From: Candidatus Zhuqueibacterota bacterium | Lineage (GTDB): Bacteria; Zhuqueibacterota; Zhuqueibacteria; Oceanimicrobiales; Oceanimicrobiaceae | Direction: 5' to 3' | DNA length: 35,919 nucleotides | NCBI GenBank assembly: GCA_029262005.1 | Contig: JAJDAG010000112.1 | Span: 1 to 35,919, forward strand | Notes under the pieces: generated by a model | Told to the model about the DNA's origin: nothing | The model's database searches: none | What the model saw: only the letters and a program-made list of their open reading frames with translations | Translations under genes and position numbers: made by a program | Part shown: positions 9,005-31,592 of the stretch, one piece after another | Numbering within the stretch: the stretch's first letter is position 1 | Layout: each line of letters begins with the position of its first letter

Positions 9005-9159
9005 CAATTATTTTTCTCTTTGAGTAGTTCCTGCCCTACAAGTCGCGGGTCCTGACTATCTCTCCTTTGCACTGCATCTAATAAATACGTAATATCGATT
9101 CACTAGTGGTATAGCGAGTCATGGACGTTTGCTTTTAAATGAATTAGGGGGGGCCGTGT

Positions 9160-9191: not shown

Positions 9192-12100
9192 ATGAACAAA
9201 AAACTTTCTTTTTTCAGTTGTCTTCTTGCAGCACTTCTCATTGCCAGCTCGGTCGGCCATCTTTACTCACAAGAGGATAGCCTTATTACCCAGCTTGATG
9301 TCGTTGGCAACATTGAAGCGCATATAATGCCTGGTCAGCGAGTTCGTATTGTCACAACTGCTGAAGCTGGGGGTACGGGAAAATTGGAACTCAGAATCAG
9401 AGGATTCGAACCGCCATTCTTATCAGGATGGGACTCGAAATCGGTTGATTGCTTGACCCAATGCCAGTTGGTTGACACGCTTTTCATTGAACCGACCCGC
9501 ACCCACTACGGAGAATATTCATTCACCGTGTTTGCAGAGTTCTTTGTTGACAATGAGTTGGTAGAGCAAAAAAATCGCCGGATACGAGTGAAGGTTAGCC
9601 CCATTATGATTGCAGAATCCCCATTTACAAAGGGTGCATCAAATCAACTCTGCTGGCAGCCACACGAAGACACCTTCAATTATGAACTCATTCGGGTGTT
9701 CACGTCTCACACAAACAAACAAGCCCAAAGAGACAAAGGCGAAAGCAATTTTGCCCTGGCAATCCCTGGCTCGTGCGATGTAGTGGAAAACCTTCCCGAA
9801 GGTCCGAGGTTTGGATATTATGTTCTGGCCAAGCCTCCAGACACAAACATCTCCTTCCGCTCCGACGTTGTCTACTCAATCCAGGATCAAACAACGCCTC
9901 CGGCAATTGAAATAGAAAATTTCTCTGTAAGAGCAAACGCCACCGTAGCGTTGAGCTGGCAATCAGATCCTGACGCCATAAGTTACACTGACAGCTACAT
10001 TATCCACAGAAAGCAAGTAAACTCCGGAGCTACCTTCACGCCGGTTGATACAATTTCTGTTTTTCCCGTCAAAGTGGCTGAACCCTTGAACTACTACCCG
10101 GCTGCCGCAACGCTTGACCAATCCGTATATGTTGATACAGCAGATTCGATTTTTGTCGCTGAGGTGGGCCAAAGTTTCACAATCCAACATTTACCCAATG
10201 AACTCCTGGGGAGCGCTCTGATAAAAACTGCCATTCGCGACCGCTGGAACGAATCTGAACGAGCCATTGTTCTCGAACTCAATACTGCGTCAGAAATATT
10301 TATTGCATACGATGTAGACAACAGAAACGAGTTCCAACCGGATTGGCTTGATGAACAATTTTCACCCATCGCCAAATCCCTTGATATTACCGATGGAAAG
10401 CTGAGAATTTATCGCAGCAATCAACCCTACCCTGTCGGCCAGGTTGTGCTTGGGGGTAATTTTGCCAACGGTGCACAACTTAGAAACAAGGTACCCATGA
10501 TGTACCTTGTTTTCATCAAACCTGTTGAAAAAATTTTACCCTTTGCAACGGGCGCCTGGGTAAATTATGTCGACTCGCTTGGGACAGAAAACGATTTGAA
10601 TACTTATAAGTACAAAATATCCGCTGTGGATGCTGTAGGAAATAAATCTACGGGTCCGGAATCACCTCCAATAATACTTGACTTGAACGGCCAGTGCAAA
10701 CCAATAGTAACAAAATGGTTTGTGTATGAAAACGCCAATCAGGTCAGGTTCGGGAGCGGTCGCTCAAACACGATCTGCATTCTTGATCCAAAGGAAGATC
10801 CAAATTGCCAGGGGTTCCGTGACTCTGATTCACTACAGTTTCAGGCCGCCCGCGAATCGCTACAACTGTTTGACTCAAATTCTGAACCTGACCAAAACGT
10901 GAGATTTTTTGATAGTGGTTGGCAGTCAACAACCGAACTTGACCCAGCCTTCTGCTATCGTTTCTCTTTTATAAATGAACAGAATGACCCCAATTTTGTA
11001 AACGGCAAAACCTACTATTATCGGGTGCGCACAAAGGACGGGTTTGGAAATATAGGTGAGTGGTCCGACACCCTCTCCGCCATTCAGGATGCATTTCCGC
11101 CTGATGACGTAAGCAGCTTATCGGTTGAATCTGACAGGTTTAGCAACGGTGAAAGTGGCTGCAATCGATTGACATGGACTGGCGCGCACGATCTGGTAAG
11201 CGGCGTCAAGTCATTCATCATATATCGAACTGACGTAAGCAGTCCGCAAGATTTTGCAGCCATTGACACTATTGCCGGCACAGAAAACGTTTACTGTGAC
11301 TCGTTAGGCCATTTTTCTATCAATAAGGTAGTGACCTATAAAATCGGCTCTATTGACAACGTTGGCAATATCAGAACCGCCAATGAATCCAACAAAAAAG
11401 CGACGATTCGTGCTCTGCTTGGCCCGACCCTCGCAGTTGACTCATCCCAAGTTTTTGGATGCCCGACAGGCCTGACAAGGGTTGTCGGTGACAGCATAGC
11501 GATTTCGTGGAAAGGGTTTGATAATACGGACGTAAGCGGCTATGATGTTGAAATTCAGCAGCCAGATGGCTTTACAAATAGAAAAATATTCGGCGATCCG
11601 GCCCTGGCACATATTTCCTGCCCGCTAATCCCCGGAGATGGCATTTACGCTATCCGCATGCGCGCATTTTACGCCAATCGGGATACCACCCTCTTTTCAA
11701 ACACGATTTCCGTTCGAAGAAAACAGAAGCTCGGCAGTGTGAAAAAGCTGTCGGCCACTCAAGACCCATTGCCGACCGGGAACATCCGGCTCAGTTGGAC
11801 ACACGCCGATCTTGGCGAAATTGAGGAATTTCAGATATTTTCATGGCAGGAGGGTGAAGAAAAACCAACAGAGCCGACAGCCACATTGCCAGGCGAGCAA
11901 GCAGAGTGGGTTCATGATTTCTACCGGGATAAACTAACAGCATATCGTTGCAATTATTACGCGGTCAGGGCAATCGATTGCTTCGGCTTGATCTCCGCCA
12001 TGGATACAGTCGTTTCTGCGTATTCAAACAAGCCACCTGCATTTCTCGACACTGCCACAGAAATAAGCATGGACCGTATTAAAGTCTGCTGGTCACGCCC

Positions 12101-13919
12101 GTTGCCACAGGTCAAGCCAAACCTTGCTTTTGAATCGTCAATAGTAGTCTACCAGGACTCTCTCGCATCGCAGCCATTTGAATCAGTCAGTTTTCTGAAT
12201 GACACATGCTTTGTGCTGCACAACCCAATTCCAGACCACAACTACATTTTCAAAGTTAAAGAGAAAATATTAGATGACCTTGAACAGGCTTGCAGTGATA
12301 AATTTGAAAGCAATTTTTCCTCGACCATAACGCTGCCATTCGAGAACCCCCCTGCGTCGGTGGACTTTGATGTGCAACCTTTGCCCGTTCATCCGGACTC
12401 CCTAAATGGAGCTGTTTTCCTCTCCTGGCAGATGTTCATGGATCCTGCAGTCACTCATTTTGTTTTACAATACAATTCACCAGGGCCGGGTGAAACAATT
12501 CTGGACTCCGTTCTGGTTAAAGCAGATACTTTACTTGTAACGGGACTGGATATCCACCGAAGTTATGCATTCAAATTGATTTCAGTTGACTCGCTTGGTC
12601 AACGCTCGGTTCCTGGTCCAGCCATTAAAGCGGAGTTTTTGCCAAGGTGGCTTTTTACCCCACAAATCACTGCGCTATCCCCGGGATGTTTTCGCGACAG
12701 TGTTACAATTTCATGGGCCTGGCTTAATGAATCGCTTGAAGTTACACCTGAAAATTTTGGTGCTGACAGCATTTTTATAGAACTTAGTATCGACTCAACT
12801 TTTAGTCTTAAAAAGAGTACAAAATCCCTCACGGCCACGCAGTCTCACACATTTTTCAGAGATAAGGATTTCGCCTTTGTAAACAATCAAAATGACCAGA
12901 TTTATGTCAGAATCAAGGCAAAAGATCGTTGGGGGCACTTCTCTCCGTGGTCATCAACTTACACAGAACTAGGCATTTTCTCTGGATTTTACGATGAAAT
13001 TGCCCCGGCGATTGTTGCAGCCGCCATCGACTCTGTGAAAGCCCCTCTTTTTGGTGGGCCCAACGAAGTTGACGTGCACATGCACTGGCAGGAAGTTGCA
13101 GACCAATGCAGTGGAACCGCCTTCTACGAAATTACTCGAAATGACTCAATCGTCGCAACCCAAGCCGGGGGAAACGACCTGCACTCATTTGCAGACCGGG
13201 GCTTGCAGTCAGGCAGTTCACTGCTGGCACAAACTTGGCGAATCTTCGCTGTCGACAGTGTCGGTAATCGGCAACCGACTGCAAATGAAATCAGCGTGCC
13301 TTTGACAATCACGGCTCCTGACTCAGGTTGGTGCCAGGACGATACCACATTTTGCTGGAACTCGGCTTTTGCCAGCCTGCCCGGATTCGAACCCGCTTAT
13401 TCTGTGGAAGGCGCACGTTTCCCATCCCTGCTTGGAAATCCGCTTACAAACTTGACAGGCGTGAACCTTACAACGCAATGTTTCAACTTTAAATCACCCT
13501 GGGAAAGCATTTATTGGCGTGTTAAGGCACGAATCAGCACCTTTGAAAGCGCATGGTCAGACACATTTTTTTGTAACTTGAATGACAGCGGCACGGTTAC
13601 CTCTGTAGATGCCGTAAAACCACTTCCTCCCCAATATGCTTTGAATGAAAACTATCCCAACCCTTTTAATCCAACAACGACCATCAGGTATGATATACCT
13701 GAGCTTAAAAAAAAATCGACACAGGTTACCCTGGAAATATTCAATGTAAAGGGGCAACTGATTAGAATTCTGGTCAACAAGAAGCAGCGACCAGGCCACC
13801 ATTCGGTCGATTGGGATGGCCGAAACGATGCAGGAAATATAGTTGCCAGCGGCGTTTACGTGTATAGAATTCAAGCGCAGAATTTCGTTTCGTCTCACAA
13901 AATGACTTTCATAAAGTAA
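9192..13919 (+). CDS. Giant secreted FN3-rich protein with T9SS/FlgD-like C-terminal domain
   Basis: The product is about 1575 residues. From ATG 9192 it begins with a good signal peptide (MNKKLSFFSCLLAALLIA..., cut near SQ-ED). The body is a chain of roughly nine or ten beta-sandwich modules of fibronectin-III character, with recurring LSW, LTW or ISW strands and VDxxGN turns. Two modules follow the pattern xFTxGxxNxxCW ... IQDxxxPP (about 142-237 and 517-637). The last 95 residues (about 1480-1575) contain NYPNPFNPTTTIRYD, EIFNVKGQLIR, DGRNDAGNIVASGVYVYRI. This is the FlgD-Ig/Por-secretion-tail type used for export by type IX secretion. Many cysteines suggest disulfides outside the cell. 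A GTG at 9156 behind AGGGGGGG is an alternative start adding 12 residues. It heads an eight-gene run. Its ligand is unknown. Confidence 0.85.
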   Translation: MNKKLSFFSCLLAALLIASSVGHLYSQEDSLITQLDVVGNIEAHIMPGQRVRIVTTAEAGGTGKLELRIRGFEPPFLSGWDSKSVDCLTQCQLVDTLFIEPTRTHYGEYSFTVFAEFFVDNELVEQKNRRIRVKVSPIMIAESPFTKGASNQLCWQPHEDTFNYELIRVFTSHTNKQAQRDKGESNFALAIPGSCDVVENLPEGPRFGYYVLAKPPDTNISFRSDVVYSIQDQTTPPAIEIENFSVRANATVALSWQSDPDAISYTDSYIIHRKQVNSGATFTPVDTISVFPVKVAEPLNYYPAAATLDQSVYVDTADSIFVAEVGQSFTIQHLPNELLGSALIKTAIRDRWNESERAIVLELNTASEIFIAYDVDNRNEFQPDWLDEQFSPIAKSLDITDGKLRIYRSNQPYPVGQVVLGGNFANGAQLRNKVPMMYLVFIKPVEKILPFATGAWVNYVDSLGTENDLNTYKYKISAVDAVGNKSTGPESPPIILDLNGQCKPIVTKWFVYENANQVRFGSGRSNTICILDPKEDPNCQGFRDSDSLQFQAARESLQLFDSNSEPDQNVRFFDSGWQSTTELDPAFCYRFSFINEQNDPNFVNGKTYYYRVRTKDGFGNIGEWSDTLSAIQDAFPPDDVSSLSVESDRFSNGESGCNRLTWTGAHDLVSGVKSFIIYRTDVSSPQDFAAIDTIAGTENVYCDSLGHFSINKVVTYKIGSIDNVGNIRTANESNKKATIRALLGPTLAVDSSQVFGCPTGLTRVVGDSIAISWKGFDNTDVSGYDVEIQQPDGFTNRKIFGDPALAHISCPLIPGDGIYAIRMRAFYANRDTTLFSNTISVRRKQKLGSVKKLSATQDPLPTGNIRLSWTHADLGEIEEFQIFSWQEGEEKPTEPTATLPGEQAEWVHDFYRDKLTAYRCNYYAVRAIDCFGLISAMDTVVSAYSNKPPAFLDTATEISMDRIKVCWSRPLPQVKPNLAFESSIVVYQDSLASQPFESVSFLNDTCFVLHNPIPDHNYIFKVKEKILDDLEQACSDKFESNFSSTITLPFENPPASVDFDVQPLPVHPDSLNGAVFLSWQMFMDPAVTHFVLQYNSPGPGETILDSVLVKADTLLVTGLDIHRSYAFKLISVDSLGQRSVPGPAIKAEFLPRWLFTPQITALSPGCFRDSVTISWAWLNESLEVTPENFGADSIFIELSIDSTFSLKKSTKSLTATQSHTFFRDKDFAFVNNQNDQIYVRIKAKDRWGHFSPWSSTYTELGIFSGFYDEIAPAIVAAAIDSVKAPLFGGPNEVDVHMHWQEVADQCSGTAFYEITRNDSIVATQAGGNDLHSFADRGLQSGSSLLAQTWRIFAVDSVGNRQPTANEISVPLTITAPDSGWCQDDTTFCWNSAFASLPGFEPAYSVEGARFPSLLGNPLTNLTGVNLTTQCFNFKSPWESIYWRVKARISTFESAWSDTFFCNLNDSGTVTSVDAVKPLPPQYALNENYPNPFNPTTTIRYDIPELKKKSTQVTLEIFNVKGQLIRILVNKKQRPGHHSVDWDGRNDAGNIVASGVYVYRIQAQNFVSSHKMTFIK

Positions 13920-13933
13920 CCGGAGTTGAAGCG

Positions 13934-16933
13934 GTGTTTTACCACAAAAGCACAACATTTACATTAAAATCCGCTCTGTCCGGTTTGGCCTTTTTCTACC
14001 TTTTACAGGTTGTACCGCCTGGTTTGCAGGCTCAGTCCACCAGCTCCAAGGCAAAAGAGACAGCGAATCACCTGCGGACTCTGCTTCAGCAGCTAGATGC
14101 TTCCGGCTGTCTCGAAACAGTCCCCCCTCCTATTTTGCTTGAAGAACCGCGCTACACGCAAGGCAGAAGCAACAAAATTTGTTTCACTTTACCTGCACTA
14201 AATTCTCTGCCAGTCAGCCCGGACAGCGTCAAGAATCCTTTTATCCTAACATTGGTTGACGACCTCAGTGGAAATGCTCAGTTGAAATTTCCTTTGCCCG
14301 TAGTCCTCGAAGAGGATTCAACGTACATTGAAACGATTAACGCTCTCAACGGCAATACCCTATATCATTACAGCAGCGCTCTGTTTTTACCCAAATGCCT
14401 GACAGATTGCGCTGCAGTCATCGACAGTACCCAGCTTCAACTCCTTTGCAGCCCGTATTCTGATACGGTTTCGTCTGTTCAGGACGAAGATGCGCCCAAA
14501 GTGGAACAACCTACTATCCCGCAAGTCGACCCGGCAGGTACAAACAACTGGTGGAATCAATCCGAATTTGTAGTTCAGGCCGACCTGACGGATTCTGCCG
14601 GTGTTTGGCAAGCTTTTCTTTATCGTCGTGCATGTGGGGCCGCGGAATGGCAAAACGCTGTCCTCGATACAACTTATTCCGGTGAATTGACCTCAACCGG
14701 ATTTCTCTTTCAGCAACAACAGGTTAGTGCCTTTGAACAAAATCTGGCTGATGGCTGCTACCAGTTCCGTATTGAAGCCAAAGATGCAAGCCATACGCCG
14801 GAAAGCTGTTTCGGCAAATTTGAACTGGCGGGAAATGGTGGGACAGCCAAACCCGGCGCCGAGCCCATGTTGCGCATAAACATTGATACAACGCCTCCCA
14901 TCGGCGTGGACATCGGGTGTGAGCAAATTGGTAATGCCATTCACCTTACCTGGACGCCGAGTGTCGATCCTGGAAATGGCAGTGGGCTTGCAGGCTATTC
15001 CATCTCACGCGATGGCCGGCACGTAGCCACACTACCAGCAAACCAAACGAGTTTCAGCGAATCGTTTTCAGCCGAAACGCCTGACAATAATTTTGTTTAT
15101 CAGGTCCAACCCTTTGACACTCTGGGCAATGCCGGTACAACCCCGGGTAATTCCATTATTTGTCAATTTCGAGCGATATTTGCCGTTACAATGCAGTCGG
15201 AGCCTGAGTACACAGCCGGGCAAAAAAATCGAGTCAACTGGTCGAGAATACCTAAGACAGAAACCTACTCCCTGTTTGTAGCCAGGAATGACGATTTTCT
15301 TTCGGCGATATCTTACCCTGTGCAGGATACAACGTTTAACGTCACGAATTTGATTGATGGGAATGCCTATTCATACTGGGTTGTGGCCGAAGACAACCAT
15401 AACCGCCTCGTTTATTCGGACACAGTTAAATCGATTCAAGATGCGACTTTCCCCCGCATCACCAAATTCGATATTCCAGACCGGATCTTTATAAATGGAA
15501 AAAACTGGATAAAGCAACGCAACATTGCCATAACTTTTTCTGCGCGAGATGCTCTGCCCGGCAAGATTCGACAAATAGAAATTACTGAAAACGGAAGCGT
15601 TGCTTTTGTCCTTCCTGTTGATCCGGCAATCGCAACCCTGGACACTACGATTGCATACCCCGTTCAATCTCAGGACTGTAAAGCAATCGAGCTTGCAGTC
15701 AGAGTCTTCGATGCTGCCGGCAATGCCAGTGCCGGTGAGAAAACAGAGCTGCGTCTTGATGATGCGGAACCGGCAAGTGTCCCGCAATCACAATGTGCAC
15801 AATTGGACCAAGCCAACGGCATTGGCCTGGTTTGGCACGAATCCACGGATGCGGCAGACTGTAGCGGTCTTGCAGGTTATCGAATTTTACGCGACAATAG
15901 GCTCATCGCTTCAGTCGCGCCAAATGTACTCACCTACAACGACATTTTTCCCATCAACACACCGACCAGTGTGTTTACTTATCAAATTCAATCTTTCGAT
16001 TCCGTGGGCAATATCCAGACAAACGGTGGTCTTTCTGAGTGCGATTACATTGGCGGCTCACTCATTTCAATCAATCCGATGTCAAAATTCACTGCCGGGC
16101 TGGCCAATACAGTTTGCTGGAATGTCTCAGGACAACTGGTTTCTTTAACCGCGTACATTGATGCCAATTGCGATGACACAGCCGAAGATTCCGTTACATT
16201 CATAGGGCCGGCAACAGCAGAACTCTGCCACACTTTTGACAATCTTATCGATGGACAAAACTATTGCTATTGGGTTGAAGGTGAAGACGCCCAGCAACGA
16301 AATATAAAGTCCCCATTGGTGCAATCCACCCAAGACAATTCACCTCCTGTTATCGAAAACTTCTCTTTTCCAAAGGCCGAAATGCTTAACAATCAACTTT
16401 GGGCATACTCTGCCGAGCTTGAATTGCGCCTAATTGCAAGCGATTCCAACGCTGGTGAAATTTGGAATTACATTATTTCTGAAAATCAAACCTCCGGAGT
16501 AACCGGTGCATTTATTGATTCTCTTTCGCGAATTGACAGGCCGCTTTCATACATAATTCAAACAAGAGGAAACTTCTCACAAATAATTGATCTGACTATC
16601 CGCGTTATTGACGGCGCAGGCAATGAAAGCAGAACCAGCCAATTGCGTTTGTACCTGCAAGAGCAGATACCGCCTGTTTTTGCATTTCCCAATCCGTTCA
16701 ACCCAATGCATACACCAATAACCATTCGAGTCGATGATCAAAGCGAAAATGAAGTCAACGTTTATGATTTCTTCGGCAATCATGTTCGGCGCCTCAACAT
16801 CAAAGAAAACAACCACGACTTCATTTGGGACGGACGGAACGGTGATGGCAAGTATGTGGCAAACGGAGGCTATATTTGCGTTGGCACCAAAACGCACGCA
16901 CGCTTCAAGATTGGCGTGACAAAAAGGCGCTAA
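13934..16933 (+). CDS. Second large secreted repeat protein with FlgD-like C-terminal domain
   Basis: This 999-residue protein starts at GTG 13934, with GGAG 8 nt upstream and 14 nt after the preceding stop. A signal peptide ends near QAQS (about residue 35). The body is three copies of a large composite unit beginning near residues 71, 422 and 716. Each opens with a module bearing (F/Y)TxGxxNxxxx and closing (S/T)xQDxxxP. Each continues with an Ig-like module; in units one and two a third FN3 module with SGLAGYxIxRD follows. In unit three this is replaced by the terminal FlgD-like domain (about 913-999: FPNPFNPMHTPITIRV, VYDFFGNHVRRL, WDGRNGDGKYVANGGYI). It is paralogous to the preceding protein and is probably exported to the same surface. 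Binding partner unknown. Confidence 0.83.
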   Translation: MFYHKSTTFTLKSALSGLAFFYLLQVVPPGLQAQSTSSKAKETANHLRTLLQQLDASGCLETVPPPILLEEPRYTQGRSNKICFTLPALNSLPVSPDSVKNPFILTLVDDLSGNAQLKFPLPVVLEEDSTYIETINALNGNTLYHYSSALFLPKCLTDCAAVIDSTQLQLLCSPYSDTVSSVQDEDAPKVEQPTIPQVDPAGTNNWWNQSEFVVQADLTDSAGVWQAFLYRRACGAAEWQNAVLDTTYSGELTSTGFLFQQQQVSAFEQNLADGCYQFRIEAKDASHTPESCFGKFELAGNGGTAKPGAEPMLRINIDTTPPIGVDIGCEQIGNAIHLTWTPSVDPGNGSGLAGYSISRDGRHVATLPANQTSFSESFSAETPDNNFVYQVQPFDTLGNAGTTPGNSIICQFRAIFAVTMQSEPEYTAGQKNRVNWSRIPKTETYSLFVARNDDFLSAISYPVQDTTFNVTNLIDGNAYSYWVVAEDNHNRLVYSDTVKSIQDATFPRITKFDIPDRIFINGKNWIKQRNIAITFSARDALPGKIRQIEITENGSVAFVLPVDPAIATLDTTIAYPVQSQDCKAIELAVRVFDAAGNASAGEKTELRLDDAEPASVPQSQCAQLDQANGIGLVWHESTDAADCSGLAGYRILRDNRLIASVAPNVLTYNDIFPINTPTSVFTYQIQSFDSVGNIQTNGGLSECDYIGGSLISINPMSKFTAGLANTVCWNVSGQLVSLTAYIDANCDDTAEDSVTFIGPATAELCHTFDNLIDGQNYCYWVEGEDAQQRNIKSPLVQSTQDNSPPVIENFSFPKAEMLNNQLWAYSAELELRLIASDSNAGEIWNYIISENQTSGVTGAFIDSLSRIDRPLSYIIQTRGNFSQIIDLTIRVIDGAGNESRTSQLRLYLQEQIPPVFAFPNPFNPMHTPITIRVDDQSENEVNVYDFFGNHVRRLNIKENNHDFIWDGRNGDGKYVANGGYICVGTKTHARFKIGVTKRR

Positions 16934-16965
16934 TCTTGGCGCGACAAATTCGGATAACATTATTC

Positions 16966-16980
16966 GCCGGTTATTCCGGC
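16966..16980 (+). other. Intergenic hairpin within the operon
   Basis: GCCGG (16966-16970) and CCGGC (16976-16980) form a short stem with loop TTATT. It is followed by seven A residues rather than T, so it is not a plus-strand terminator. It could protect or process the transcript between the surface-protein genes and the downstream genes; this is speculative. Confidence 0.3.
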
Positions 16981-17054
16981 AAAAAAATCAGATTAATTCA
17001 AGCTGAATGACAACTGCAGAAACGGTCTTTAAATGCAAGAAACAGTTCAAGGTT

Positions 17055-19127
17055 ATGGTAACCAGAAATAAATTCTATATAATACTGTTGCTTTGCCTTC
17101 CCTGGCACACCACGGTGAACGCTCAGGGCAATGCAGGACAGGCAGGCGAGTTCCTCCGTTGGGGGGTAGGGGCAAAGGCCCTCGGCTTGGGCAGGGCTTT
17201 TACATCCATTGCAGATGATGCAAGCTCCATATACTGGAACCCGGCAGGCATGACGGCATTAGCACAAAACGGCGCAACCCTGATGTTCATGCATCTGCCG
17301 ATTGGGCAGGACGCATCGATGAACTATCTGGGTGGCGCTTTGCCCGTGCGACTCTTCTTCGTCAACCGGCCTGGTGGGAAATTTGTCCGCGCTCTGCAGG
17401 ACCTAAAGTTAGGTGTCGGTGTGATTTGGCAGTCATTGGGCGAATTTGATTTTTACGATGGAAATGCGGCGCCGCTCTCGTCGACTGCAAAAAATACAAT
17501 TGGCGAGTCAGCCATCCTCCTGGCCGCGTCATACCCATTAAATCCCCTACTCAGAAAACTGACAAGAGACCAGGGCAGATGGCTGTCCCCATTCAAGGGC
17601 AGTCTTGAGCTCGGCTTTACCACCAAATTTCTCAAGCAGAACCTGTTTGGAGAGCATGGTTCAGCCACAAGCCTGGATTTGGGGCTCAAGTATAGCCACG
17701 CATCCGGGGTGTTCAATCTGGGCTTTGTTTGGCATGATTTCAATTCTCCTGTTTTTTCTTATGATAGCGATCTGGTTGTAGATGAAGTTCCGGCACACGG
17801 CACGCTGGGTGCCTCCCTCACACCGCCTTTCAGCCCCATGCGAGGCTTGACGCTTTCTTTCGATTACGGCATTCTGTCGGCTGCAAATCGCGAAAGAGAA
17901 ATCATGTTCGGCTTTGAATATGACTTTTCAAAGTTAAGTGCCGGTTATCCAATCAAACTGCGAATAGGTTCAAACTCAACCCACGAGTCCTTTACTTTTG
18001 GCCTGAATTTCAGCCCGGAAGAACTGTTTGAGCAGGACTGGCTGCCTTCCGGCGATTGGACCTATGCGAATGACCGCAGTAATTACAATGCCGTCGGCCA
18101 ACGCTACTCATTTTCCCTTGATAGAAATCCGTTTACAGCCAAATACTGGTACTTGAATGGACTGGCGCAACTTGAGGAGTCAATTACCGGCGCTGCCACC
18201 GACAGAGTCGAAAGCGAACGCGTTTTGCACTATATGAAAAATGCCGAACAAGCAAAAAATCCTGGAAGCCACCCATACAGGTATCAGGCTGCGCTGCGGG
18301 TTGCTGATGTTAAATTTTTTATAGAACTGGCGGCCCTGCGGACCGCCTTGCCTGTAGAATCGGACCGCCAAAGCCCTTTCATCAGGGTAACAGAAAATTA
18401 TATTAAACGAGCCACCAAGTACCAACGCCTTGATTATGGCAAGACCAACCTTGATTTTGACAGCTATTTCCGATCTTACGTTTACTACCTGCAGGCGCTC
18501 ATTCTCTCCGGGGAAACAGAGTTAGCCAGGCAGATGTGTACATCCGGCAGCGCCTTTGCAGGACAGAAGCTAAGCAGTCTCAAACAGCAACAAAGAGACC
18601 ATTTAAATTATCTGCTTGCCTATGCCTCATTTGGAAGTGAATTGAATAAGGAAGCAACTAAAATATTGCAAGAACGCCTGGCCCACAGCAGTGTTGGAAA
18701 ATTTCTACTTGCACACATCCAATTCATGCAAGGGAATTATCGTGATGTTCTCAGAAATGTCGAGCAAATCGATTTGAATGATACGGAGTTTCCACACGAT
18801 TTATACTTACCCATTACAAATGATTACACCTTTGGTGATGAAGTACTTTTTCTAAAGGCTATTTCTATTTATGAATTATCCTCAGGCACAGAGAAAGGCC
18901 GGACTTTTATCAACGAATTTGCCAAAATTCCAAGATACTTCCCGGCATCTGACTTGGCACAATTCCTGATTCAGGACGATGCCATACTCAGCGCGTTGAT
19001 AGAACAACATGAAGCCGGCAACCCGCAAGAGATGGATAAACTTGTCCGTAAAATTGTCATGTCCTATGTCAAAACGTTTTCAAATGGCACGTTGTTAAAA
19101 AACTTCTACACCTACAACTACAAATAA
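17055..19127 (+). CDS. PorV-like outer-membrane beta-barrel fused to a helical (TPR-like) domain
   Basis: From ATG 17055 the product is 690 residues with a clear signal peptide (MVTRNKFYIILLLCLPW..., ending near NAQ). An upstream ATG at 17007 would add 16 residues. Residues about 25-330 resemble the PorV/UPF0164 family of outer-membrane barrels: GVGAKALGLGRAFTSIADDASSIYWNPAGM, then alternating aromatic strands ending near SFTFGLNFSPEELF. In type IX secretion PorV carries folded cargo to the attachment complex. Residues about 355-690 are alpha-helical and TPR-like (YLQALILSGETELARQM, LLAHIQFMQGNYRDVLRNVEQI). That extension is not part of ordinary PorV and probably protrudes into the periplasm or assembles with partners. 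Location after two proteins with sorting domains fits a role in their export or anchoring. Confidence 0.78.
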   Translation: MVTRNKFYIILLLCLPWHTTVNAQGNAGQAGEFLRWGVGAKALGLGRAFTSIADDASSIYWNPAGMTALAQNGATLMFMHLPIGQDASMNYLGGALPVRLFFVNRPGGKFVRALQDLKLGVGVIWQSLGEFDFYDGNAAPLSSTAKNTIGESAILLAASYPLNPLLRKLTRDQGRWLSPFKGSLELGFTTKFLKQNLFGEHGSATSLDLGLKYSHASGVFNLGFVWHDFNSPVFSYDSDLVVDEVPAHGTLGASLTPPFSPMRGLTLSFDYGILSAANREREIMFGFEYDFSKLSAGYPIKLRIGSNSTHESFTFGLNFSPEELFEQDWLPSGDWTYANDRSNYNAVGQRYSFSLDRNPFTAKYWYLNGLAQLEESITGAATDRVESERVLHYMKNAEQAKNPGSHPYRYQAALRVADVKFFIELAALRTALPVESDRQSPFIRVTENYIKRATKYQRLDYGKTNLDFDSYFRSYVYYLQALILSGETELARQMCTSGSAFAGQKLSSLKQQQRDHLNYLLAYASFGSELNKEATKILQERLAHSSVGKFLLAHIQFMQGNYRDVLRNVEQIDLNDTEFPHDLYLPITNDYTFGDEVLFLKAISIYELSSGTEKGRTFINEFAKIPRYFPASDLAQFLIQDDAILSALIEQHEAGNPQEMDKLVRKIVMSYVKTFSNGTLLKNFYTYNYK

Positions 19128-19161
19128 TATGCGAAGTACTCTAAATAAAAGAGGTAGTGCT

Positions 19162-20811
19162 ATGAAAAAACGAACTTACCCGCATGCATGCTTGATTCCC
19201 TTGTTTTTGATATGCGCGATTGCCGCCGGTTATAGTCCGGCAAGCGCAACGAATCCTGAGCCTTTATACAAAATTGTCATAGCAGACATTTCATATGAGA
19301 AAGTCCTCAAAAACTGGCTTCTTCTCCCGACCAGTGTAGACATCAAATTGACATGGGCGATTACAACCAAAGACATAGCCCAAAACCGCGAAATTGAACT
19401 ACAGGAAGACCCGCAGGTGCTGCCATTTATTTATCAGGTCTACACATATCATGAGGGAAGCAGCCGGCCCAAAATCCGGGAATCTCAAAAAACAGATCAC
19501 ACCATTATCAAACAACTCAAAATTGGTCAGAAGTATGACTTTAAAGTGAGAATGCTGAATGCCCGCGGCAACCTGATGGGAGAAACAGCCCTGTCATCGC
19601 TGATTGTGGGAAAAAATGGCTTTGCCGGTCGTGGTGGACTTCGAAAAAAAAATTGGCTCTATTACGCCCACCCCGGCAGATGGCAACTTGCAGTTCTGCG
19701 GAAGGCCCACATCTACGACCGCTCAACAGCACTTGGCAAAGTTGCGTTCCTCTTTCTTTCAATAACTTCGACATTTAGTATCATCGTGCTCGTTTTTTAT
19801 TCCACGCGATCCCTTTACCTCGGCAACGTCTTTCCTTATAAACGTTCAAACAAAGGACTGTTCTGGTCAATGTTGTTGAGTTGTGATGCCTCCTACGAAA
19901 ATCGTCTGACCAACAAATTTAAATTCATGCTCCATGCCTGGGAAATGACCGCAACCAAGAGTAAACTTGTAGCTGAACGAGCGGTAAAAAGCATCCCAAG
20001 CAGTTTAAGTGCAACGGAAAAAATGGCCTCCGTAGATGTCGCTTGCATGGAGTACTGGATGACAGATGGTGACCGCGCCATCGAAACCATCGAGGACATT
20101 ATCTCATACCCTTACGACAATCACCCAAATGGTAAAGTCAAAAGTCCGGATGATTTGTTAACGGAACTTGTTCTCAAGATAGAAGATAGTTTTCATGAAA
20201 TTCTTCAGGATGAGCAAAACGGCTCGCTTTCAAACGGCTTACACGAAAAGGAAGATATGAAAACTCTAATTGAAGAGATATATGAGCCGGTCACAACTGA
20301 AAGAAAACCGCTATCCAGACTTCGCACCTGGGTGTTGAGAAGAGGCGTACTCGACCTGAAGAAAGGTTTGCGGCCCTTTCCAACCAGTCGCATAATTCAT
20401 GCAGGTCTGGGTATCCACCGCATAAATGGCTACCACTGGCTCAAACAGACTGAGGATGTTAAACGCGCCTTTGAAGACCGCGCTTCCAATGAAATTGAAA
20501 TGCTTAAACGTAAATCAAAAATTGAATGGTTTTGGAATTATGGCGCCCTCGCCCCTCTGGTTGGTTTGTTCGGCACGGTGACCGGCATTACATATGCATT
20601 TCAACAGCTCGCAAGCACCACCGGGTCGCCCGATTTTGTCAGCACCATTCAACAACTTAGCAGCGGCATTTTTGAGGCGCTGTGGACAACGATCCTGGGG
20701 CTTGCTAATGGCATCTGCTTCGTTGTCATCTACCACTACTATAAGCATAAGCTGGATTGGATTTACTCCAAGTGGGAAGAGCTTTACGTTACCATTACTG
20801 AAAAACTATAA
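19162..20811 (+). CDS. Enlarged ExbB/TolQ/MotA-type proton channel with N-terminal extracytoplasmic domain
   Basis: I prefer ATG 19162 (GAGG 7 nt upstream; signal-like MKKRTYPHACLIPLFLICAIAAG) over ATG 19129, giving 549 residues. Residues about 33-150 form an FN3-like beta domain expected outside the inner membrane. A TM segment follows at about 193-218, then a long cytoplasmic region (220-450). The MotA_ExbB domain at about 455-530 contains APLVGLFGTVTGITYAF and GIFEALWTTILGLANGICF; the threonines match the channel-lining positions of ExbB. Ordinary ExbB is about 240 residues, so the protein is more than doubled. With the ExbD genes it would form an inner-membrane proton-driven motor. The FN3-like domain could link it to periplasmic partners. 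Confidence 0.85.
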   Translation: MKKRTYPHACLIPLFLICAIAAGYSPASATNPEPLYKIVIADISYEKVLKNWLLLPTSVDIKLTWAITTKDIAQNREIELQEDPQVLPFIYQVYTYHEGSSRPKIRESQKTDHTIIKQLKIGQKYDFKVRMLNARGNLMGETALSSLIVGKNGFAGRGGLRKKNWLYYAHPGRWQLAVLRKAHIYDRSTALGKVAFLFLSITSTFSIIVLVFYSTRSLYLGNVFPYKRSNKGLFWSMLLSCDASYENRLTNKFKFMLHAWEMTATKSKLVAERAVKSIPSSLSATEKMASVDVACMEYWMTDGDRAIETIEDIISYPYDNHPNGKVKSPDDLLTELVLKIEDSFHEILQDEQNGSLSNGLHEKEDMKTLIEEIYEPVTTERKPLSRLRTWVLRRGVLDLKKGLRPFPTSRIIHAGLGIHRINGYHWLKQTEDVKRAFEDRASNEIEMLKRKSKIEWFWNYGALAPLVGLFGTVTGITYAFQQLASTTGSPDFVSTIQQLSSGIFEALWTTILGLANGICFVVIYHYYKHKLDWIYSKWEELYVTITEKL

Positions 20812-20888
20812 GAATTTCTGAGGAGCAAGCCTTGCATCAGGCCTGCATCCCAAAACATTAACTCTGATCATTACTGACTGCAAACGCA

Positions 20889-21479
20889 ATGCCTTTTAAA
20901 CGTTCAGAAAGTCCGCGCACACTCGAGCTCACAAGTCTGATCGATATTGTCTTTCTGCTGCTCATTTTTTTTCTCGTTTCCTTTGCATTTTCTCTTACCG
21001 GCGATGTTTCGGAATCAAAGACCAACTCAGACATCAGTCTGCCAAAAGCAAACAGCGAACTGCCTGTGCTGCCGGATGACCGGCTCGACAATCTCATGAT
21101 TCAAATCGTGCCGGACACAACAAATGTGCTGATGGCGCATCGTGTTTTCATTTTGTGGCCTGCCATGCACGATTCTGTGGGCATTACCCGTGTGCAAGCT
21201 TATCAGACGGCTCTTGAAGATTCGACTTTTTCCGGCATTGGAGCAGATTTCCTGAAACTTGACAAACAGGCTTTTGCTGCGCTGCCTGCGTGCCGGCTGA
21301 TATCAAACTCCATCGCCAAATATTTTGAGGTGAATAAATTCTCCCGGCGCAGCGGCCACTCAATGGTGGAAGTCAGGGCGGAAGAAAACACGGAATTTAA
21401 GATCATCAATTTTATAATGGCGCAATGCGGCAACAACGAGGATGCTGTTCCACAAATAATTATAAGGACAACGCCTTAG
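20889..21479 (+). CDS. ExbD/TolR-type protein, first copy
   Basis: The 196-residue protein has a short basic N-terminus and one TM segment at about 17-36. The essential proton-carrying aspartate is D19 in LTSLIDIVFLLLIFF. The rest is a periplasmic domain. ExbD pairs with ExbB to couple the proton gradient to mechanical work in the envelope. The periplasmic part is longer than in usual ExbD (about 140 residues total) and has two cysteines (AACRLIS... and AQCGNN). It lies 77 nt after the ExbB-like gene and 15 nt before the second copy. No strong ribosome binding site precedes the ATG. Confidence 0.88.
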   Translation: MPFKRSESPRTLELTSLIDIVFLLLIFFLVSFAFSLTGDVSESKTNSDISLPKANSELPVLPDDRLDNLMIQIVPDTTNVLMAHRVFILWPAMHDSVGITRVQAYQTALEDSTFSGIGADFLKLDKQAFAALPACRLISNSIAKYFEVNKFSRRSGHSMVEVRAEENTEFKIINFIMAQCGNNEDAVPQIIIRTTP

Positions 21480-21494
21480 CAGGCAAACTGTAAT

Positions 21495-22058
21495 ATGGCA
21501 TTTCGAAAACTATCTCAGGGCGACCGGCGAATACAACTGGTCTCACTGATCGACCTGATCTTTATCCTTCTGATCTTTTTTATTATCACCAGCGTTTTGA
21601 TCAAACTCACCACAGGGGAGGTACAACTCCATATTCCAGTACCGAAGAATGAACCGGGCGATGCACAAATTCTCATTCAAATCCTGGGTCGCGATTCTTT
21701 TCTCTGGTTGGATCATACCGCCATCGACACCTTGAATACCTATAGCCATCGGATGAAACAACCCTTGGAACCAAAAAGCAAAATCAATCTGCTTCTAACC
21801 AAAATGGCTGTAGATTCAGCCGGGCTGCAGCACAACATTGCAAAACTAAAATCAGCCGCACATGACAAACCCAACAAAGATTATTTTCTGATAATCCGCT
21901 GTCCCGAAGAACAGCCATATTATTACGCGACCAATATTATTGAACAGCTTACAGACACACCAAATTTTGAATACGGATGTGTTGCCGGTTCCATCGAAGA
22001 GCTGCGCAACAGCGCCAACTTTACCATTGAAGGCAACGTTTTGCAAATTGACTTATAA
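21495..22058 (+). CDS. ExbD/TolR-type protein, second copy
   Basis: The 187-residue protein has basic residues at the N-terminus (MAFRKLSQGDRR) and one TM segment at about 15-37. D20 in LVSLIDLIFILLIFF sits at the conserved proton-carrying position. A periplasmic domain of about 145 residues follows. It is clearly diverged from the preceding copy outside the TM segment. Two unlike ExbD proteins suggest a hetero-oligomeric stator or rotor. A weak AGG lies about 11 nt upstream of the start. Confidence 0.88.
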   Translation: MAFRKLSQGDRRIQLVSLIDLIFILLIFFIITSVLIKLTTGEVQLHIPVPKNEPGDAQILIQILGRDSFLWLDHTAIDTLNTYSHRMKQPLEPKSKINLLLTKMAVDSAGLQHNIAKLKSAAHDKPNKDYFLIIRCPEEQPYYYATNIIEQLTDTPNFEYGCVAGSIEELRNSANFTIEGNVLQIDL

Positions 22059-22103
22059 TTCACTGAAGTGTAACGATTCCAGCTAAAACAATAGCTTAGA
22101 GGC

Positions 22104-22694
22104 ATGCGCAAAAATTTTCCAAAATTCATTCTCTTTGGTCTGATAGCATCAGGCTCTGTTCTCCTCCTCTATCGGCAAGCGTCGCTTTCACAAATGCCGG
22201 ATGCTTTAATCAGTATACCACAGAAAATTGAACACGAAGTTATCCCCGTTCCAAGACGGCCGGGGACAAAAAGCATTCGAATTGTCGGGCCACCACTGCA
22301 GGTGCTAAAATTTCAAATTGACTTCACACAAAATCCGCTTCCAATTGATTGGCGCTTTCTTGAAAGAACCGACAAGCGGGCTGATGTGATGGTTGAAGGC
22401 CGAATCGATAACGATGGCAACTTTAATATCCGTAAAATTCGTGACCGGGGTCATCCGCAAGCAGGCCACTATATCCGCAATGTTCTCAGCTCGTGGAAAT
22501 TCAAGCAATATAAGAAAGGCACGATTCGATATTACTTCAATGTTCCAACACGCCTGGAAAACATGAAAATACAAATCGACACACGCGGACTGAACAAAAA
22601 CCGCAAACATGTACGCCAGAGCGACTTCCTGAAAAATGGTATCCTCTGCTACGCAGTCGGAATCAGTAGAAAAAATATTAAGGTGATTCAATAA
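22104..22694 (+). CDS. Short TonB-like protein
   Basis: The 196-residue protein has one N-terminal TM segment (about 8-26). A short linker follows (about 30-70), without the long proline-rich stretch typical of TonB. A domain at about 85-150 has the TonB C-terminal pattern: VEGRIDNDGNFNIRKIRD, YIRNVLSSWKFKQYKKGTIRYYFNV. A 45-residue tail of unknown type ends the protein. TonB transmits ExbB/ExbD energy to outer-membrane partners, and the position directly after two ExbD genes supports this. The linker is too short for easy contact with the outer membrane, so a periplasmic partner such as the next gene's product is possible. AGAGG lies just before the ATG. Confidence 0.75.
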   Translation: MRKNFPKFILFGLIASGSVLLLYRQASLSQMPDALISIPQKIEHEVIPVPRRPGTKSIRIVGPPLQVLKFQIDFTQNPLPIDWRFLERTDKRADVMVEGRIDNDGNFNIRKIRDRGHPQAGHYIRNVLSSWKFKQYKKGTIRYYFNVPTRLENMKIQIDTRGLNKNRKHVRQSDFLKNGILCYAVGISRKNIKVIQ

Positions 22695-22695
22695 A

Positions 22696-25600
22696 ATGCA
22701 CGATCTTGTTAAAAAATTTCAACTATTATTTTTGTTTGCAATGTATTGCTTTAATACCGCACCAGCATTTTCACAAGACTTTATCGAGGGAATTCACCTC
22801 TTCAACCGTGCTCAATACGATTCATTGATCCATTATTTTGTACCTGACTTCCTTGCCGAAAACCCGCATGAAGAAGGGTTGGCCCGTTACTTTCTGGCAG
22901 AATCTTATTACAACCAAGCCTTGCAAAATACAGATTCAGAGACTGCTATCTTTGCTATGAACCAGGCCTGGCAGGAATTTCGCCTGGCAATCCACAGTAA
23001 GGACTTAAAAATTTCCTTTCCAGAATATCACGACCAGGCTGCCTACAAACTGGCCTGGTGCTCATTTCGCCTGGCCGAACTTGGCATTGAGCCCCTTTTG
23101 AAATATCAGCAAGCATTCCGGGAATTCAAAAACCTATCACCCTATGCGTCTGATTCCCTACGAATTTTTTCAAATTACATGGCTGGAGAAAGTAAACTAA
23201 GAGAAGCGCAAATCATTTACTACTCCTTAATCGGTACTGACTTTAATCAAGGGCGAGCGTTTCAGGCTTTGGAAGCACACGAAACAGTCACAGGGTTATA
23301 CGACAAAATTCTGGCAGAAGGGCCTTCGGAGTCAACACCACAACATTTTGAGCAATTACAGAACATCGTCAAATTCAGAAAATTCAGACTGGCTTCTGTC
23401 TTTGCCAAATACTGTCTCGGATTGGCAGCATTTAACTCCGAAATCAGGTTAGATGCAGCCCTCGGTAACACTTACAAACAACAGGCGCAGCAATTTCTTG
23501 ACAAAGTCAGACTGGATTCAATCGCCGCTTATAGCGCATCAGTTCAAAAGTACAGCCAGTACCTCAAGATGAATCATCACTTGAACGAATATTTTCTCAC
23601 CAGCCAACAAAACGCTAAAAACGCCTTCCTGAATGCATGGACGCATGTTGACCCTGTTGAACTAAAAACAGAACGTTTATTCAGAAAAGCCAACCTGTAT
23701 CATGCGCATCCTGAAGTAGAAAGTGACGAGTTTAACGATTATGCTCCTGCGCTTTACGATTCTTCATCTATGATTCAGGAGTCTTATTACTGGCTCGGGG
23801 AACTCCAGATAATTCAGGGTGACAAAGAAAAAAGCCGGAAGAATTTTGCAACATTCTTAAGGCTTAAACAGAGCGACCAGAGACCGGATGCCCGGGAAAC
23901 AATGCTTGTGGAGTACGCCACTTACAGAATGTACCTTCTCGATTTCGAACGTTATTATCTGACCCAGAATAAAAAGAACCTGGGTCTATTGGCCAGGCAA
24001 CTCAAAGAATTTATACCAAAATCTCTGTTGATTCTGAAAAAAAAGGAAGAACTGGATCTTTTGACAAACTGCAGCCTAACCCGCAGCAGCAAAGAAATCT
24101 GGGGCAAAGTTTTAAAGGGCTCCGACCAGGAAAAGCTCGACCAGGCTCTTAGTACAGTCCGGTTTATTTTACCACGCGCAGCGCTCAACATTGGTGTTGT
24201 CCGTGAACGTTATATTCAACTATTGAAACGCTTGTTCGATGTCACACGCACGCGCCGCAGTAATGAAACAAGGTTCTTTCAGGGAATCGTGACATCGTTG
24301 CAAGCCGAAATTGAAGCCACTCCCCTTGACAAAATAGCGGGTTTCGAGGCAGCGGCAAAGGCCATGCTGGCCGTGGAACCAACTTTTTCCGGCAAAAATG
24401 AAGCTGATTATATTCGCGCGCGCTGCTGGTTTTTTGCCGACGACTTTGAGCGTGCCAAAGCTGCGCTTATCCCGCTGGTCAATGACCATCATTACCTGCG
24501 AGCCTTGTTTTATCTGGCGGAAATCTTCCGGTTGGAAGGGAATGCGCTGGCAGCCCGCATCTGTTACCGACACATCATAACAACACTTCAACACGCTGAT
24601 TATGTTTACGATGATTTCTGGCTGTCCAATGCACTCGCGGCCATTGAATCGACCGACGAGGAAGGGACGATTTCTGCATTAGATTCAATTGATGTGGCCT
24701 CAACTGTATTTCAGCCCGCGCTCAGGCCGAATTTTCTTACCTATGAGCGTCTGGCAGAGGAACAACTAATCAAACAGAAACTTGCCCGGGAAAGTGTTGC
24801 CTGGCTCACATTGTTGGGCCTGCCTGAAAAAGATTTTTGTCCCTCTGTTCATCAATGGCCCGCTGCACTAGCCTCGCCAATCAATCACTTTGCTTCCCCG
24901 CGCGGTGTGTTAAATGAGGTGCGCGGCCCCATCACATCATCACTTATTCTTGAAGTCATTGTACCGAAAAATGTAGAACGTCGCCTACAAGTGACATTGG
25001 GAAAAGAAACCCTGCATGAAAACAGGGGCCAATACAGACGACGATCGATTCCGCTTAACACAGAAGTAATATTGACAATAAGCAACCCGGATTGCTATGA
25101 ATTTCAACAGCAGTACCGATTCAGCAAGCCTGGCGATGTCCATCACATCGTCTCGGTTAACCGCAAGCTGGCTTATGTTCGCACTGAAAAACGGTTAAGC
25201 CTGCAAAAAGACTTTGACTACGATTTGCCGCCACGGCCGGATGCCAACACCATTTTCAAAGAATTGCCGCAGCTAAGCCCGGAATGTGACCTCAGAGCAG
25301 ATTACAGCAACCTCATTCAATTCAGGGACATGGTATTTGATGGTTCACAAGAGCGGTTTATTGCCGTAAATTCAGCCGAAAACAGCCTTTGGACCTACTT
25401 CCGTGATGGCGCGAGAGACAGCGTTATCGCAATTGCGATGGACCATGAATTAAACAGCCCGGAAGGAATAGCAGTAAATGCTGTCGGCGAAATATATATC
25501 GCGGATTGGGGCAACCACCGTATTGTTAAATTTGATTCTGACGGCAACTACTTGAATGCAGCAGGCTCCTTCGGTAAAAACACGGCTGCAGATATTGGTC

Positions 25601-25893
25601 ACCCTGTTAAATTTGTCTACCCCACCAGACTTGCAATTGTCGGAACCGGATCCCCGGGCGAGCATCGCGTCGATATCAACCAAACCTACATTTATATTGC
25701 CGATCACAACGGTGTGCATATCTGCAAGCCGGACGGCGCCTATCTCGGAACGCTTATTTCACCAGGCAGCGAAATGAAGGAAAGCTCATTTTATGGCATT
25801 TTACCTCAATTCACTGGTGAACAAGCAAGCCTGTTTCTTGTTGATAGAGCGAGCCCCAAAGGCATGGAAGTACTTGAATTTATTTCAAAATAG
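22696..25893 (+). CDS. Large periplasmic/secreted protein with TPR-like, PEGA-like and NHL-like domains
   Basis: The 1065-residue product starts one base after the TonB-like stop, with AAGGTG upstream overlapping the end of that gene. A signal peptide ends near FSQD (about 27). Residues about 30-740 are mostly helical and TPR-like, with paired tyrosine/alanine-rich helices (LARYFLAESYYNQAL, SYYWLGELQIIQGDKEKS, RARCWFFADDFERAKAAL, LFYLAEIFRLEGNALAAR). Residues about 748-825 resemble a PEGA-type beta domain. Residues about 869-1065 hold NHL-type propeller blades (SPEGIAVNAVGEIYIADWGNHRIVKFDSDGNYL). Such architecture usually scaffolds protein complexes. It closes the eight-gene run and is a candidate periplasmic partner of the motor. 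It has no C-terminal sorting domain. Confidence 0.75.
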   Translation: MHDLVKKFQLLFLFAMYCFNTAPAFSQDFIEGIHLFNRAQYDSLIHYFVPDFLAENPHEEGLARYFLAESYYNQALQNTDSETAIFAMNQAWQEFRLAIHSKDLKISFPEYHDQAAYKLAWCSFRLAELGIEPLLKYQQAFREFKNLSPYASDSLRIFSNYMAGESKLREAQIIYYSLIGTDFNQGRAFQALEAHETVTGLYDKILAEGPSESTPQHFEQLQNIVKFRKFRLASVFAKYCLGLAAFNSEIRLDAALGNTYKQQAQQFLDKVRLDSIAAYSASVQKYSQYLKMNHHLNEYFLTSQQNAKNAFLNAWTHVDPVELKTERLFRKANLYHAHPEVESDEFNDYAPALYDSSSMIQESYYWLGELQIIQGDKEKSRKNFATFLRLKQSDQRPDARETMLVEYATYRMYLLDFERYYLTQNKKNLGLLARQLKEFIPKSLLILKKKEELDLLTNCSLTRSSKEIWGKVLKGSDQEKLDQALSTVRFILPRAALNIGVVRERYIQLLKRLFDVTRTRRSNETRFFQGIVTSLQAEIEATPLDKIAGFEAAAKAMLAVEPTFSGKNEADYIRARCWFFADDFERAKAALIPLVNDHHYLRALFYLAEIFRLEGNALAARICYRHIITTLQHADYVYDDFWLSNALAAIESTDEEGTISALDSIDVASTVFQPALRPNFLTYERLAEEQLIKQKLARESVAWLTLLGLPEKDFCPSVHQWPAALASPINHFASPRGVLNEVRGPITSSLILEVIVPKNVERRLQVTLGKETLHENRGQYRRRSIPLNTEVILTISNPDCYEFQQQYRFSKPGDVHHIVSVNRKLAYVRTEKRLSLQKDFDYDLPPRPDANTIFKELPQLSPECDLRADYSNLIQFRDMVFDGSQERFIAVNSAENSLWTYFRDGARDSVIAIAMDHELNSPEGIAVNAVGEIYIADWGNHRIVKFDSDGNYLNAAGSFGKNTAADIGHPVKFVYPTRLAIVGTGSPGEHRVDINQTYIYIADHNGVHICKPDGAYLGTLISPGSEMKESSFYGILPQFTGEQASLFLVDRASPKGMEVLEFISK

Positions 25894-30815: not shown

Positions 30816-31592
30816 TTAATTAACACGACGACCGCGAACACCAAAATCCACATTATCTTTCACCCAGGAAAAAAAGTACGCCTGCTCCTCAATTGAGGTA
30901 TCCGGCTGGAGAATCTTCGGGTCCTTCCATGCGACCATCACCTCCGCATCCTGTGTCCACACTTTGACGCGCCTTCTGGGCACGCCTCGCTGCCAGTTGC
31001 TGCCAACAACAGCATCAGTGTAAAGCAGTCTCACGGTAACATTTCTGGCAAGCTGCTCAAGCGGCTTTAGTTTGAGACTGCGAAAGTCTGTTTTACCATC
31101 TTTTTTTACATCCGGAACACCATCACTCAACATGATAATGGAGATAGGGCGGAGTACCAAATTCTTATTTTTTACCATCAGCGCACACTGTTCGAAAAAG
31201 GCATTGAAGTCCGTAAATTGATTCGGCTTGCTCGTATTGAACTTCCCAATCAAGGTCTGCCGAATCTCTACAACCGTTTTGTTTTCGAATGTTTGAATCG
31301 GATAAAACGTTTTTGCCTCTCCGACTTTCGCACCGCCAATTGAGCTTACAAACAATACATTCGGCACTTCCAGACCACCGACACCATTGATATGACTGTA
31401 AATGTAATGTGCAAGAAAATCCAACGAATCCTCATAATATCCACTTTTGTGAAAAGATCCGCTAACATCAATTCCAACAAACATGGTCATTCTCGCTTTC
31501 GGTTTGGCCTCAGAATCAAAGACCGTGCAGCCGGATGAGACCAGGCCCAAAGCGACCCCTAGCAACAGTGTCATTTTACTGAGTTTTAACAT
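30816..31592 (-). CDS. VWA-like lipoprotein
   Basis: The 258-residue protein has a lipoprotein signal peptide ending SSGC, so C22 would be lipidated. A von Willebrand A-like fold follows. It opens with the metal-site motif DVSGS (D42, S44, S46) in MFVGIDVSGS. Later come a threonine-containing region (QFTDFNAFFEQCA) and SIIMLSDGVPDV, the place of the third metal ligand. It therefore probably binds a divalent metal and a protein partner at the envelope. The start has GGGGAG 7 nt upstream and overlaps the 3' end of the upstream gene by 17 bases, so the two are co-transcribed and probably act together. The function is unknown; VWA proteins often assist complex assembly. Confidence 0.75.
   Translation of the reverse strand: MLKLSKMTLLLGVALGLVSSGCTVFDSEAKPKARMTMFVGIDVSGSFHKSGYYEDSLDFLAHYIYSHINGVGGLEVPNVLFVSSIGGAKVGEAKTFYPIQTFENKTVVEIRQTLIGKFNTSKPNQFTDFNAFFEQCALMVKNKNLVLRPISIIMLSDGVPDVKKDGKTDFRSLKLKPLEQLARNVTVRLLYTDAVVGSNWQRGVPRRRVKVWTQDAEVMVAWKDPKILQPDTSIEEQAYFFSWVKDNVDFGVRGRRVN

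Follow-up and report, generated by a model that had tools for sequence, protein, structure and literature searches.

A conserved eight-gene cassette combines an ExbB/ExbD-type motor and a TonB-fold protein with a PorV-like barrel and two predicted surface proteins

Analysis of a 35,919-nucleotide stretch of DNA (the window, which makes up the entire contig C16 of a Candidatus Zhuqueibacterota genome of 5.77 Mb and 98.7% completeness) identified a cassette of eight genes, A to H, in which a putative proton motor is encoded beside a PorV-like outer membrane barrel and two large repeat proteins with sorting-type tails. The same genes occur in the same order in distant lineages and, judged from sequence comparisons, all eight are inherited together. 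We give an even chance to the reading that the eight proteins make up a single trans-envelope machine, driven by the proton motive force, which acts mechanically on the surface-anchored A and B proteins via C. All eight open reading frames were located on the plus strand between positions 9192 and 25893 of the window, as follows.

9192..13919, + strand: A, 1575 aa, secreted Ig/fn3-repeat protein with a C-terminal T9SS type A sorting domain
13934..16933, + strand: B, 999 aa, Ig/fn3-repeat protein with a FlgD/PorZ-like C-terminal domain
17007..19127, + strand: C, PorV-like 14-strand outer membrane barrel with a helical TPR-like tail of ~330 residues
19129..20811, + strand: D, enlarged ExbB/TolQ-like proton channel
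20889..21479, + strand: E, first ExbD paralogue
21495..22058, + strand: F, second ExbD paralogue
22104..22694, + strand: G, 196 aa, TonB-like transducer
22696..25893, + strand: H, 1065 aa, exported TPR / PEGA-like / NHL beta-propeller protein

The gaps between consecutive genes measure 14, 73, 1, 77, 15, 45, and 1 bases, and none of these internal gaps contains a terminator-like site on the plus strand; in the window as a whole, 22 such sites were observed compared to 22.4 expected, which is the chance level. The open reading frames, the gap lengths, and the terminator scan therefore confirmed the first-pass annotation, which had described eight same-strand genes with gaps of 1 to 77 bases and no terminator inside. 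An intergenic stretch of ~830 bases lies on the 5′ side of A, which starts with the ATG at 9192 and has an in-frame TTG at 9129. On the 3′ side of H, a PAS/histidine-kinase open reading frame follows on the same strand after 175 bases. Searches of the window with Rfam returned zero RNA elements, and PADLOC gave zero matches to D to H as a defense system. Elsewhere in the window, at 30816-32841 on the minus strand, a pair of overlapping open reading frames encodes a small secreted probable lipoprotein and a multi-TM membrane protein of unknown function.

The order A-B-C-D-E-F-G-H on one strand was found in every sufficiently long contig examined, a conservation far exceeding chance. The f1 relatives with long enough contigs carry all eight genes in this order between different flanking genes, and families f5, f10, and f15-f23 have loci with the same arrangement. 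The enlarged D gene is carried by 31 of the 82 genomes of the phylum, counting only long frames with E values of ~1e-40 or lower; a broad profile at 1e-20 also catches ordinary ExbB proteins of 200 to 300 residues. Outside the phylum it is carried by 4 of 306 genomes, a set picked by the search tool, and the sample consists mostly of metagenome-assembled genomes and of sequence data throughout. These four genomes belong to three families (loci L101-L104) and have the A-H order as far as the contig extends. The D profile also added divergent cassettes in f3 and f5 (L105-L107, L109-L111) and a second cassette in genome G027 (L108), which likewise show that order to the extent of their contigs. 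At some of the divergent or outside loci, G or H fell below profile detection and was then placed by position and length, and some of these loci have two or more ExbB-type genes. At one locus outside the phylum, L104 (G159:C235:4001-24000), four ExbB-type genes are present, and three of these form a tandem array. The D-carrying and H-carrying genomes are nearly identical sets. A search for H outside the phylum found nothing, a false negative that probably arose since scoring was limited to two candidates per genome; the four genomes there were found later, with the D profile. The H match in genome G035 is truncated by the end of its contig and is not a pseudogene. In families f18-f23, an additional gene of ~250 to 390 aa lies between C and D (for example, L046:7675-8841 and L052:11101-12213), and two of these tested against NCBIfam gave no match. 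Outer membrane barrels end in an aromatic residue, and the last residue of this additional gene product is mostly aromatic.

Genomes with two cassettes bear on how the genes are inherited. Genome G007 has two (L047 and L060), one copy being very divergent, and genome G004, of family f16, has L040 and L048 on the same contig (C14), ~38 kb apart. In the trees of C, of D, and of H, one of the G004 copies clusters with the f5 cassettes (SH-aLRT 98/95/99), and the other clusters with its own class. The agreement of the three trees shows joint inheritance of C, D, and H, with the cassette handed down as a unit. Within the set D to H, the pairwise distances of the five proteins correlate with each other (r 0.73-0.90), and A and B track the motor genes less closely (r 0.49-0.69). 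The earlier proposal that the motor block (D to H) and the surface block (A to C) belong to one locus was borne out by the neighborhood comparison, in which the two co-occurred as one conserved cassette and separation was not seen. This synteny suggests that A and B are what the motor serves.

D, E, and F carry the sequence features of a motor. In D, a signal peptide is followed by an fn3-like domain of ~170 aa, TM1, a long cytoplasmic loop, TM2, and TM3, with the MotA_ExbB domain at residues 436-550. The GTVTG motif and the TT pair in TM2/TM3 are invariant or nearly so (G482-T483, G486, and T520-T521 are invariant), and the TM3 glutamate E516 is nearly invariant. Both E and F have an ExbD domain scoring over the cut-off, and the TM aspartate (Asp19 in E) is kept in both across all 29 aligned sequences. 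With the channel residues thus conserved, the three proteins probably form an ExbB/ExbD-type motor for which proton flux and force are predicted.

The G sequence alone had zero Pfam matches. Its structural model has an inner membrane TM anchor (residues 7-29), then ~40 linker residues modeled with low confidence, and a beta-beta-alpha-beta domain (residues 94-146) modeled with confidence. All of the six top-ranked PDB matches of G are TonB C-terminal domains, at modest E values of 0.01-0.18. A profile of 23 G sequences against the PDB also ranked TonB first (E 0.03). When G was compared by hhalign with three TonB-like proteins encoded in the same genome, no usable match was obtained, and G is therefore identified as TonB-like from its fold and from the PDB profile. 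A linker of this length falls far short of spanning the periplasm; therefore, G should act on a periplasmic partner, and H would be the obvious one. H of the window scored over the cut-off for NHL and weakly for TPR, and it weakly matches the CpoB/YbgF model (E 1.2e-5). In the alignment of H, NHL repeats were found in 22 of 23 sequences and TPR in some. The homologue at L101, in another phylum, has TPR matches and scores over the cut-off for both NHL and PEGA.

The C protein matched the PorV/PorQ model with an E value of 5e-19 and 69 bits, below the curated cut-off of 90 bits. Its predicted structure (23 sequences, mean pLDDT 84) has 14 beta strands at residues 74-357 followed by helices only at residues 362-689. 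In Foldseek, the first and second hits were 8gl6_F (E 4e-8) and 6h3i_F (E 8e-7), which are the PorV chains of the T9SS SprA translocon; FadL/TodX ranked below them, and TPR proteins, matching the tail, ranked further down. The 14-strand model and these best PDB matches uphold the earlier description of a PorV-like barrel with a helical extension. The tail would be expected in the periplasm because an even-stranded barrel brings the C terminus back to that side. The CxC motif of the SprF periplasmic tail is absent from C, whose cysteines are only at positions 10, 30, and 511.

The A protein has a signal peptide or hydrophobic N-terminal segment, and its C-terminal tail (NYPNPFNPTT...GVYVYRI...) scores 30.4 bits against TIGR04183 (cut-off 23), which places it among T9SS cargo proteins of type A. 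The same model was matched by 20 of 21 aligned A homologues, among which NPFN..T is invariant. B has a weaker signal peptide than A, and its tail scores over the Pfam cut-off for FlgD_ig (36.8 versus 27) and below that for TIGR04183 (13.6 versus 23 bits). The B protein of the window aligns with the C-terminal end of the PorZ model, which 17 of 23 B homologues match, compared to 5 of 23 that match TIGR04183. The homologues vary from 357 to 1603 aa, a range that would fit a stalk built of repeats. Of the identities proposed for the parts in the first-pass annotation, those of the A tail, the C barrel (by fold), D, E, F, the G fold (a TonB C-terminal domain in the model), and the NHL repeats of H stood; the B sorting tail and the TPR of H were weaker; and PEGA did not reach the cut-off in H of the window, only in the L101 homologue.

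The cassette is not self-contained, as had been suggested, because the translocon SprA and the sortase PorU are encoded elsewhere and the cassette has no outer membrane export pore of its own. Both were found in the same genome on other contigs (SprA at G000:C133:10039-11391, E 2.8e-26; PorU at C191:943-4362, E 2.2e-253). In the phylum, SprA was found in 78 of 82 genomes and PorU in 80 of 82 at E 1e-30 (73 of 82 over the cut-off), and ten genomes had from 56 to at least 150 sorting-domain matches each. None of the 82 genomes has GldL over the cut-off, and 15 genomes searched for the GldM C-terminal domain gave no match. The phylum therefore has a T9SS in which SprA and PorU are near-universal and the known motor was not detected. 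The possibility that the cassette is the general T9SS motor was rejected, since most SprA genomes lack it and most cassette-free genomes retain SprA, PorU, and (where sampled) many CTD proteins. The parallel drawn earlier with the energizing of type IX secretion by GldL/GldM is thus an analogy only: no GldL homologue scores over the cut-off in the 82 genomes, and most of those with SprA and many CTD proteins lack the cassette. The same genome has five further ExbB-type motors (L065-L069, on G000 contigs C14, C3, C33, C170, and C93), and therefore the cassette motor is an additional one and presumably dedicated. They comprise a TolQ-R-A-B-like set (L065), a Glt-like motor (L067) encoded together with large TPR proteins and a TonB_C protein, a motor adjoining ftsZ-like genes, a simple ExbBD-TonB set, and an ExbB-ExbD-ExbD set preceded by a TPR protein of 1501 aa. 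The idea of gliding as a replacement for flagella was also rejected; carriers occur with or without flagellin, and there was no flagellin association.

Several known systems share parts with the cassette. One of them is the Bacteroidota gliding/T9SS chain of GldLM, the GldK/J/N track, SprF, and SprB (PMC12635249), which likewise has an inner membrane proton motor and a barrel carrying a long T9SS-exported surface protein, and whose periplasmic link from barrel to motor would have a counterpart in the cassette. However, the cassette motor consists of ExbB, two ExbD, and a TonB-fold protein, with GldL over the cut-off in none of 82 genomes and the GldM C-terminal domain in none of 15; the barrel is PorV-like rather than PorP/SprF-like and has no CxC tail; and a TPR/NHL protein takes the place of the lipoprotein track. 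The Myxococcus Agl-Glt/Nfs core (AglRQS, GltD/E/G/C; PMC3169522) similarly has one TolQ/ExbB-type and two TolR/ExbD-type proteins, a TonB-like transducer, and large TPR proteins. However, G lacks both the FHA domain and the TonB-like, proline-rich region of GltG, and the published glt/agl genes include no PorV barrel or CTD-tailed surface proteins. Vibrio TtpC is a MotA/TolQ/ExbB-family protein. The Vibrio TonB2 system with TtpC and TtpD2 (PMC6957404) is an ExbB-ExbD-TonB operon that also ends in a TPR protein, which is essential; it serves TonB-dependent siderophore receptors, whereas the cassette has a PorV-like barrel, two surface proteins, and no receptor, and the linker of G is very short. 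The PorV/PorQ-PorZ attachment complex of the T9SS resembles the cassette in the PorV-type barrel and the PorZ-like tail of B, but in the cassette the barrel has a helical tail of ~330 residues and the genes are grouped with a motor. No published description of this gene set was found among open-license papers.

In the machine reading, A and B would be exported through the SprA translocon encoded elsewhere, and C would retain them at the surface by their tails, like PorV and SprF with their respective clients. H would bridge the periplasmic tail of C to G, and the D/E/F motor would pull or turn the C-H-G chain. The output might be movement of adhesins along the surface, as in gliding, their extension or tensioning, or their loading onto the cell. 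This reading is based on the conserved order, the joint inheritance, the C/PorV and G/TonB matches, the conserved motor residues, and the presence of SprA, PorU, and CTD proteins in the genome. A known analogue is Flavobacterium SprB, a T9SS-exported adhesin held by SprF, whose periplasmic C-tail attaches to a proton-driven track and so produces movement (PMC12635249). The cassette has a candidate counterpart for each step: A/B as adhesin, C as carrier, H as periplasmic element, G as transducer, and D-E-F as motor. In addition, type B substrates use specialized shuttles that are frequently encoded adjacent to them (PMC12618676). We infer the coupling, localization, contacts, and direction of force, as well as the output, be it motility, adhesion, display, or uptake. 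Against the machine reading are the looser distance correlation of A and B, the lack of a CxC motif in C, and the B tail below the T9SS cut-off. Further, TonB-fold proteins mostly act on import receptors.

In another reading, the cassette is an energized uptake system. C would be a channel of the FadL/PorV type, A and B would take hold of a polymer or particle at the surface, and D to H would drive its passage or gating. The parts of TonB-dependent transport, ExbB, ExbD, and a TonB-fold transducer, are all present, the fold of C is shared with FadL/TodX transporters, and the TPR gene comes last in the operon, like TtpD2 in Vibrio (PMC6957404). An ExbB-ExbD-ExbD-TonB operon of Fibrobacter succinogenes that is up on cellulose was read as an uptake system (PMC6851124), and we count it on this side. 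However, C is nearer to PorV than to FadL, none of the eight proteins is a plug-domain TonB-dependent receptor, the neighbors of the cassette in the f1 loci include no recurring transporter or enzyme gene, and the genome has other ExbBD-TonB sets; we consider uptake quite unlikely. A Tol-Pal-like role in envelope maintenance, in which the system tethers the outer membrane and A and B are a structural surface layer, appears very improbable. The motor, transducer, TPR, and propeller parts do resemble TolQRA, CpoB, and TolB, with H giving the weak CpoB/YbgF match, but no Pal/OmpA or TolB model matched any of the eight proteins, L065 supplies a separate Tol set in the same genome, and the cassette is missing from ~50 of the 82 genomes of the phylum and is therefore not housekeeping.

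The product of the remaining alternative would be a static surface coat. Here, the cassette would be a dedicated energized station for secretion or attachment, with the motor powering the export, proofreading, or release of A and B at the outer membrane and with C as their private shuttle. The PorV-like C, the resemblance of the B tail to that of PorZ, and a phylum with near-universal SprA and PorU and no detected GldL or GldM C-terminal domain are consistent with such a station. However, the cassette encodes no export pore, and most cassette-free genomes keep SprA and PorU, with abundant CTD proteins in the sampled ones. This means that the T9SS there runs on something else, which could do so for A and B too, and we consider a dedicated secretion station rather unlikely.

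The cassette may represent an undescribed class of proton-driven surface machine found in several phyla, in which a TonB-type motor, acting through a periplasmic TPR/propeller bridge and a PorV-type barrel, would mechanically move or tension two T9SS-exported proteins. Such a machine would be a separate, independent route to gliding or active adhesion in bacteria other than Bacteroidota and Myxococcota, a proposal that we hold tentatively, at somewhat less than an even chance. The set is sharply defined, with eight genes in fixed order in distant lineages, and it links named surface proteins with a proton motor in bacteria whose cell biology is almost blank. The predicted chain runs from the motor through the TonB-fold transducer, the TPR/NHL bridge, and the PorV-like carrier to the surface protein and can be tested step by step. 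The cassette suggests that a motor other than GldLM can be joined to carriers of the PorV type and to proteins with T9SS tails, and it bears on how type IX secretion may be energized where SprA and PorU are near-universal and GldL is not found.
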